From Prochlorococcus sp. AG-347-I21 (GTDB lineage: Bacteria > Cyanobacteriota > Cyanobacteriia > PCC-6307 > Cyanobiaceae), in the NCBI GenBank assembly GCA_003279055.1, contig QCBP01000008.1:18318-82317 (forward strand): a stretch of DNA of 64,000 nucleotides. Direction: 5' to 3'. Below the pieces are notes generated by a model, which was not told where the DNA came from, searched no databases, and worked only from the letters and a program-made list of their open reading frames with translations. Each line of letters opens with the position of its first letter. Within the stretch, counting starts at the first letter, position 1. Shown piece after piece: positions 39,767-52,090 of the stretch. A program made the translations under genes and the position numbers.

Positions 39767-39860
39767 GACTCGGCCTTTCGCGGTTTTAACGCCTAAACCT
39801 GGTCAGGACCGGAAGGTAGCAGCCACAAGGGATGCTTGAGGCAGGCGAGATAACCGAGTC
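39767..39860 (+). ncRNA. ffs: Signal recognition particle RNA (4.5S, small bacterial type)
   Basis: Contains the universally conserved SRP hairpin GGTCAGGACCGGAAGGTAGC with its GGAA tetraloop and asymmetric loop. The terminal stem GACTCGG (39767) pairs with CCGAGTC (39860). A TAATAT-like -10 box lies just upstream. It is on the plus strand between two minus-strand genes, panB and ftsZ. The ends are inferred from base pairing. Confidence 0.93.
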
Positions 39861-39875
39861 ACTCTATTTTACCTT

Positions 39876-50102: not shown

Positions 50103-50107
50103 CAAAG

Positions 50108-50189
50108 TGGGAGCGGTCGGACTTGAACCGACATACCCGAAGGTGCCGCATTTTGAGTGCGGTGCGTCTACCAATTCCACCACGCTCCC
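50108..50189 (-). tRNA. tRNA-Leu (CAA)
   Basis: 82-nt class II tRNA read from the minus strand. Acceptor GGGAGCG pairs with CGCTCCC plus A73. The anticodon stem CCGCA/TGCGG encloses loop CTCAAAA, giving anticodon CAA. A short variable arm (CACCTTCGGGT) and T-arm GTCGG-TTCAAGT-CCGAC follow. CCA is not encoded. argD begins 5 bases downstream. Confidence 0.97.
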
Positions 50190-50222: not shown

Positions 50223-50448
50223 ACAAAAATCAACTGATTGACTATTGTTTTGGTCAAGGAACAGTTATCAAGATAACGTTTGTTAATAGTTAATCTTTTC
50301 GATAAAAACATAGAATTATTTATTGCATTTGCTGACAAGAAATAAGGTAAAGGATGAAAAGCTTAGCATTTATGATACATTTTTGTGATTAAATAAGCTC
50401 AAAAGTCTTTTTTTTAAGTGGATAGCTTCATGATTAGTAATATTGTGT

Positions 50449-50454
50449 TATAAT
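50449..50454 (+). promoter_or_regulatory. -10 box upstream of micropeptide pair
   Basis: Perfect TATAAT in ATTGTGTTATAATTATT. It lies 21 bases before the ATG of the first micropeptide ORF, so a transcript starting about 7 bases downstream would carry a short leader. No good -35 hexamer is evident, which is common in this genus. Confidence 0.55.
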
Positions 50455-50475
50455 TATTAAAAAGCAATTGTTAAA

Positions 50476-50574
50476 ATGCAAGCTAAAAAATTATCTTTTA
50501 AATTTGTTCCTTATCTCTTTATTGCAGTGACTATACTGACAACATTTGGATCTAATACTGGAACTTGGGTATGA
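50476..50574 (+). CDS. Micropeptide 1 (32 aa, single membrane span), not in ORF track
   Basis: ATG at 50476 opens a 32-codon frame: a basic start (MQAKKLSFKF), one hydrophobic segment (VPYLFIAVTILTTFG) and a short polar tail ending NTGTWV. It is preceded by a perfect TATAAT box. Its TGA overlaps the ATG of the next ORF as ATGA, an arrangement typical of translationally coupled genes and unlikely by chance here. It matches no photosystem or cytochrome b6f small subunit I know. Function unknown. Confidence 0.55.
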   Translation: MQAKKLSFKFVPYLFIAVTILTTFGSNTGTWV

Positions 50575-50681
50575 ACGAATTCAAATTTAATGGTTTAAAT
50601 AAAAACTGGTCTAATCGCTTCCTAGTTTTGTTTATATTATTTTTGGGTTGTATTTCACTAATCAACATTGCTTACGTTTGA
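50571..50681 (+). CDS. Micropeptide 2 (36 aa, single membrane span), not in ORF track
   Basis: Begins in the ATGA overlap with micropeptide 1 and encodes 36 residues: a polar Asn-rich start (MNEFKFNGLNKNWSNR) and one membrane helix (FLVLFILFLGCISLINIAYV) with a cysteine. It ends 38 bases before the convergent murA stop. The pair may be subunits of one membrane complex, but this is inference from coupling and topology only. Confidence 0.55.
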   Translation: MNEFKFNGLNKNWSNRFLVLFILFLGCISLINIAYV

Positions 50682-50719: not shown

Positions 50720-52090
50720 CTAAGCTGCCTCGAGTTTTGAAAGATTCTCAGATTTAGGCTTAATTTTATATTCATTCTTCTCAAAAGTATTTTTACTGAT
50801 TTCTCTAATTATTTTTACACCTAGATCTTTTAGTTTTAATTCAAAATTTTCATAACCTCTATCTAGATGTTCTAATCCATAGAAATTACTACTACCTTTT
50901 GCGATGATTCCTGCAATTATTAATGCAGCTGATGACCTTAAATCTGATCCAACTAGATTCATCCCATTAATTGTTTTAACACCTTTGATATAAGCTACGT
51001 TTTTGTTTAGTTTTATACTGGCACCCATTTCATTAAGTAAATAAATATGATTCATTCTGTTTTCGAAAATTGTTTCAGTTATCTTTGATTCACCATTTGC
51101 GATTGTCATTAGAGTTGTAAATGGTGCCTGCAAATCAGTAGGAAAGCCTGGGAAAGGAGCTGTTTCAATATCTACACCTTTAATCTCTTTACTCTTGATA
51201 GAAATCGAATTACCTTTAATCGTAATTTTACTCCCACTCTCTTGAAGCTTATTAGTAACAGCTTCAAGATGATGAGGGATTACTGGAGAAATTGTTATTG
51301 AAGAGAAAGTTGCAGCAGCAGCAATTAGAAAAGTTCCAGCTTCTATTCGGTCTGGAATTACTTTATGGGTACATCCACCAAGCTTATTAACACCATCAAT
51401 AATAATAATTTCTTTACCGGAGTCATAAATTTTTGCCCCCATTTTATTAAGCATTTGGCATAAATCTTGAATTTCAGGCTCTCTAGCAGCATTTTCAATA
51501 GTAGTTCTTCCTTTGGCTAAAGATGCTGCCATTATTATAGTTTCAGTCGCACCTACACTTGGACAATTTAATTTAATATGAGTGCCATGAAGTCTATTAT
51601 TGTCCCCCCTTGTTTTTGCCTTTACAATTCCCTCTTCAATAATAATGTCTGCTCCTAGTGCGATTAATCCATTAATGTGCTCGTCTATTGGCCTTGAACC
51701 AATATCGCATCCACCGGGTAACGGTACTTGAGCTTCTCCAAATTTAGTTAATAGTGCACCTATACAAAAGAAACTAGCTCTTAATCCTTTAACAAGTTCA
51801 TATGGAAGTTCCTTAATAGAAATAGTTGTTGGATCTATTTCTAGTTGGTTGTTTTTACGAACTAAATTCACTCCTAAATTCTTTAAGATGTTCCCCATCT
51901 TTTCAATATCAGTGAGAAAAGGTACATTTTCAAGAATTATTTTTTCATTAGTTAGTAATGATGAGGCTAATAAAACTAAGGCGGAATTCTTCGCACCACT
52001 TATTTCAACTATTCCATTTAACTTGCCTTGGCCAAGAATCTTTAAATTTTGCGATTTAAGATATGACTTAGTTTTGCTTCCGCAAATCAT
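50720..52090 (-). CDS. murA: UDP-N-acetylglucosamine 1-carboxyvinyltransferase
   Basis: First committed step of peptidoglycan synthesis. 456 aa with EISGAKNSALVLLASSLL (Lys-Asn of the active site), GLRASFFCIGALLTKFG and PLPGGCDIGSRPIDEHI with the PEP-reactive cysteine. N-terminal (about 13) and C-terminal (about 20) tails are longer than in E. coli MurA. Confidence 0.96.
   Translation of the reverse strand: MICGSKTKSYLKSQNLKILGQGKLNGIVEISGAKNSALVLLASSLLTNEKIILENVPFLTDIEKMGNILKNLGVNLVRKNNQLEIDPTTISIKELPYELVKGLRASFFCIGALLTKFGEAQVPLPGGCDIGSRPIDEHINGLIALGADIIIEEGIVKAKTRGDNNRLHGTHIKLNCPSVGATETIIMAASLAKGRTTIENAAREPEIQDLCQMLNKMGAKIYDSGKEIIIIDGVNKLGGCTHKVIPDRIEAGTFLIAAAATFSSITISPVIPHHLEAVTNKLQESGSKITIKGNSISIKSKEIKGVDIETAPFPGFPTDLQAPFTTLMTIANGESKITETIFENRMNHIYLLNEMGASIKLNKNVAYIKGVKTINGMNLVGSDLRSSAALIIAGIIAKGSSNFYGLEHLDRGYENFELKLKDLGVKIIREISKNTFEKNEYKIKPKSENLSKLEAA

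Follow-up and report, generated by a model that had tools for sequence, protein, structure and literature searches.

A pair of overlapping small genes, designated ORF1 and ORF2, was identified between the tRNA-Leu and murA genes of Prochlorococcus sp. AG-347-I21. Both are real genes under protein-level selection, and the pair is specific to the high-light Prochlorococcus clade. The explanation favored here, at a probability of roughly one half, is that they form a light-induced operon of two single-helix membrane proteins acting jointly in thylakoid light acclimation, in which we infer the RpaB control, the coupling, the topology, the location, and the role.

The window, meaning the whole 64,000-nucleotide stretch that was analyzed, comes from a genome of 1.56 Mb. 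A gap of 530 bases separates tRNA-Leu(CAA) (50107 to 50189) from the 3' end of murA (50720 to 52090, minus strand). On the plus strand of this gap, translation, alignment, dN/dS, and predicted structure supported ORF1 (50476 to 50574), a 32-aa single-helix membrane peptide (MQAKKLSFKFVPYLFIAVTILTTFGSNTGTWV) with N-terminal positive charges and a conserved GTW at the C terminus, and ORF2 (50571 to 50681), a 36-aa single-helix membrane peptide (MNEFKFNGLNKNWSNRFLVLFILFLGCISLINIAYV) with the signature GLNKxWSxRFLxL...SLxNxA. The two share an ATGA stop/start overlap (50571 to 50574, plus strand), from which we infer translational coupling. The gap, the ORFs of 32 and 36 codons, and the overlap had all been described in a sequence-only reading of the same DNA and were recovered unchanged. 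When the gap was subjected to 4,000 dinucleotide shuffles and both strands were scanned, single hydrophobic ORFs of 30 or more aa arose at 0.16 per shuffle, and an ATGA-coupled pair of such ORFs was found in 0/4,000. Together with the conservation across 102 loci described below, this bore out the earlier claim that the combination is hard to obtain by chance; it also refutes the reading of the pair as chance ORFs in an AT-rich gap, which is favored by their short length only and has a probability close to nil. Elsewhere in the window, an ordinary bacterial small SRP RNA (Rfam RF00169) was present at 39767 to 39863.

Across 102 distinct loci of the genus, both genes were kept, always between murA and tRNA-Leu/argD. 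The ATGA overlap was found in 101 of these loci, with ATAA in the remaining one (G015, locus L102), where the usual ORF2 ATG was lost and another in-frame ATG was located two codons upstream. The C terminus of ORF2 was shortened or frameshifted in a few loci; the frameshift in G192 (locus L084) is one example. A DNA search of the genus gave a match in 255 of 266 genomes, with many matches weak and perhaps covering the query only partly, while protein searches with loose cutoffs (maximum E values of 10 and 1) placed ORF2 in 89/101 and ORF1 in 49/61 genus genomes, including some weak off-locus matches. Eighteen genus genomes with no or weak match were checked again: argD was not matched in 15, and in the other 3 it was found at a contig end or close to one, and the missing pair was attributed to assembly gaps in these 18. 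The pair was seen wherever the locus was readable in a high-light genome.

In the proposed frames, pooled pairwise dN/dS was 0.134 in ORF1 (last 27 codons) and 0.174 in ORF2, and codon position 3 was the most variable in both. Among the other five frames, only one reverse frame was clearly below 1 (0.28 and 0.32), with codon positions mirroring the coding frame. Conserved residues in ORF1 were S7, F15, T22, G29, and W31, with P12 and Y13 nearly always retained, and those in ORF2 were G8, L9, W13, S14, R16, F17, L18, S29, L30, N32, and A34. Both overlapping frames are thus conserved and under purifying selection, as is characteristic of a bicistronic small-protein operon. Loss of the frame, the ATGA, or the length in close strains had been named beforehand as counterevidence, and the pair withstood this comparison with its relatives. 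The ORF1 of nearly all relatives has its start codon three codons farther upstream (MSKTQAKK...). Alignment of relatives showed ATT (50467 to 50469, plus strand) in place of this ATG in the window genome, where an ATG has arisen at the fourth codon; translation here must therefore start either at ATG 50476 or at that ATT. The 32-codon length given in the sequence-only reading is thus correct for the window but peculiar to this genome.

A link to light was obtained from genome G033, which we take to be Prochlorococcus MED4 and which carries two identical hli clusters. Its gene order is murA, the pair (minus strand), tRNA-Leu, and argD, with the pair lying against the murA 3' end. PMM1301 and PMM1472 are listed among the aminotransferases (PMC2242806); argD was assigned to PMM1301 over PMM1472 by position, and murA is therefore PMM1300. 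A transcript, PMED4_14671, located opposite the 3' UTR of PMM1300, was reported to be up 14-fold when light was increased (PMC2518516). Because there is only one gap between murA and argD, PMED4_14671 was assigned to the position of the pair. By position alone, then, the pair matches this light-induced gene, which lies at the same place and on the same strand with respect to murA (PMM1300) and for which the light-induced transcript was reported, and ORF1 and ORF2 are probably light induced. The main text of PMC2518516 devotes one sentence to PMED4_14671, which mentions neither a sequence nor a second ORF and is silent on coupling, function, and clade limit. Neither this light-induction report nor the HLR1-like element described below figured in the sequence-only reading.

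A regulatory RNA of the Yfr type, with the ORFs incidental, was also considered; many ncRNAs exist in Prochlorococcus, some with short ORFs, e.g., Yfr6. Such a reading is contradicted by the frame-specific codon constraint seen in dN/dS, the gap gave no Rfam match, and the position is absent from the ncRNA table of PMC2518516, so that it deserves very little credence. Identity with Yfr6 itself was rejected, as Yfr6 is located elsewhere in MED4.

Upstream of ORF1, alignment of the loci revealed an extended −10 box, TATAAT with TG one base upstream (50449 to 50454, plus strand), preceded by 17 bases by a −35-like CTTCAT (50426 to 50431, plus strand; mean column conservation, 0.98). The TATAAT was present 21 bases upstream of the first ATG, as previously noted. 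Its description as a perfect −10 box holds for this genome, but it is a minority variant: among the 102 loci TATAAT occurred in 8, while the typical TATATT occurred in 76. A generic promoter scan passed over the promoter owing to its poor −35. Within the upstream noncoding DNA, the 18-mer with the highest conservation was 50437 to 50454, at 0.957 versus a median of 0.838 (102 loci), and the conserved promoter feature is this longer block plus CTTCAT.

The block (GTAATATTGTGTTATAAT; 50437 to 50454, plus strand) overlaps the −10 box and matches the HLR1 consensus bound by RpaB, KTTACAWW-N2-KTTACAWW (PMC13421787), at 13/16 positions, a score that taken alone is not significant, being reached by 8 to 22% of shuffles in most loci tested and by 79% in one. 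HLR1 sites located from −38 to +23 act as repressing elements in low light (PMC13421787). In MED4, the hli cluster promoters (L208 and L211) carry GTTATATT-TG-TTTACATA over the −10, 15/16 to HLR1. A relaxed HLR1 pattern occurred at 7 places in MED4, three of which were the promoter of the pair and the two identical hli clusters; this pattern was written after the sites had been seen, and its reversed control gave 20 matches versus 7. The likeness of the promoter block to HLR1 is thus a resemblance rather than a test. A search of the source genome with the promoter 21-mer found no site besides the promoter of the pair, and a search of viral contigs with a 19-mer matched one contig, which did not contain the pair.

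A single helix was predicted for each peptide, spanning residues 2 to 27 of ORF1 (mean pLDDT, 75) and residues 4 to 35 of ORF2 (mean pLDDT, 81), in agreement with the sequence-only reading. The N terminus would lie inside because positive charges precede the hydrophobic stretch. Neither ORF had a significant match in Pfam, NCBIfam, PHROGs, or PDB sequences, which sustains the earlier statement that the peptides match no small photosystem or b6f subunit, and none of the family libraries searched detects the pair. The closest known likenesses were considered individually. The HLIP/SCP proteins (Pfam Chloroa_b-bind, PF00504) are likewise small single-helix membrane proteins and are light induced, with an HLR1-like element over the −10 in the MED4 hli clusters similar to the promoter of the pair. 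Unlike them, neither ORF contains the chlorophyll-binding motif ExxNGRxAM on inspection, and neither matched a Pfam family above cutoff. The small single-helix subunits of the photosystems, b6f, and NDH (PsaJ etc.) resemble the pair in length, single helix, and N-terminal positive charges. Against the PDB, the ORF1 profile reached only one PsaJ chain (E = 0.77). Kinship of ORF1 with PsaJ (PF01701) was not supported: hhalign against Prochlorococcus PsaJ gave 0.6% probability over 4 columns, the C-terminal ExNRFxPDLL is absent, and 10/10 genomes tested have PsaJ elsewhere.

As hydrophobic peptides of 30 to 40 aa, the pair could also be toxin-like, of the type I toxin-antitoxin kind, with its mRNA under antisense RNA control; the convergent transcript that overlaps the 3' side in MED4 would fit. 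Two coupled ORFs, clade-wide retention at one site, and strong purifying selection are, however, unlike known toxins, and no antisense gene was detected. The PHROGs search was empty, and tblastn against phages gave nothing for ORF1 and one weak, unrelated match for ORF2. This reading is considered quite improbable. A more substantial alternative, although still doubtful, is that the two small proteins serve a membrane complex that has nothing to do with light stress (a transporter, NDH-1, or cytochrome oxidase, for example), either as accessory subunits or as regulators, much as KdpF, AcrZ, and CydX do. Their size and single helices are consistent with this proposal, as are the core retention and tight coupling of the pair, but the 14-fold light response reported at the position and the HLR1-like promoter suggest a role in light, and no linked partner gene was present.

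Profile searches of 251 genomes of the family gave strong matches only within the genus, in 16/16 genomes there. The sequence-only reading had proposed a search of Prochlorococcus and Synechococcus genomes; by these family-wide searches, the pair is not general in the two but confined to one clade. In sister-clade genomes the order murA, tRNA-Leu, argD was unchanged, with no such ORFs between, and the murA-tRNA gap was ∼40 bases in most, at most ∼60 in L173, and ∼285 in L176. Since the sister clades share the gene order without the pair, either the high-light clade acquired it or its neighbors lost it.

One peptide outside the clade showed a likeness to ORF1. This 26-aa LLI-clade peptide, MKLVPYIFMAVAIFSEVSTIATTPII, was conserved in 13 genomes (L157, 1501 to 1581; L213 to L225) and has a KLxPYxFxAVAIF core, with the resemblance extending over ∼14 residues. 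In a search of the 251 genomes with it, the sole match outside LLI was MED4 ORF1, and the reciprocal matches were weak (E = 0.039; 4e-4 per genome in the other direction). It differs from ORF1 in being at another locus, shorter, with a different C terminus and with no ORF2 alongside. Homology of the two peptides is possible, and the weak reciprocal match suggests that the helix motif of ORF1 may not be entirely restricted to the high-light clade. The LLI peptide was located ∼1 kb from hli genes, amid other small single-helix ORFs.

The light acclimation operon favored here, limited to high-light-adapted Prochlorococcus, would work as follows. Under low light, the HLR1-like site over the −10 would be occupied by a regulator, most likely RpaB, that blocks the promoter; in strong light this regulator would leave, allowing a bicistronic mRNA with a short leader to be made. 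The ATGA overlap would cause both peptides to be translated in a fixed ratio, and each would insert as one helix with its positively charged N terminus in the cytoplasm. ORF1 and ORF2 would then act jointly, probably either by forming a small heteromer or by joining a thylakoid complex as accessory subunits, and so contribute to acclimation to excess light. More speculatively, the pair could be a two-subunit module of single-helix proteins that was acquired when high-light Prochlorococcus arose, became fixed clade-wide, and is derepressed by RpaB in strong light, adding a new accessory component to a photosystem or to the machinery that repairs it.

Prochlorococcus is the most abundant photosynthesizer of the ocean, and its high-light members, with their minimal genome, dominate the sunlit tropical oceans. 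Kept throughout this clade and absent from the low-light neighbors, the pair is a candidate for enabling life in strong light.
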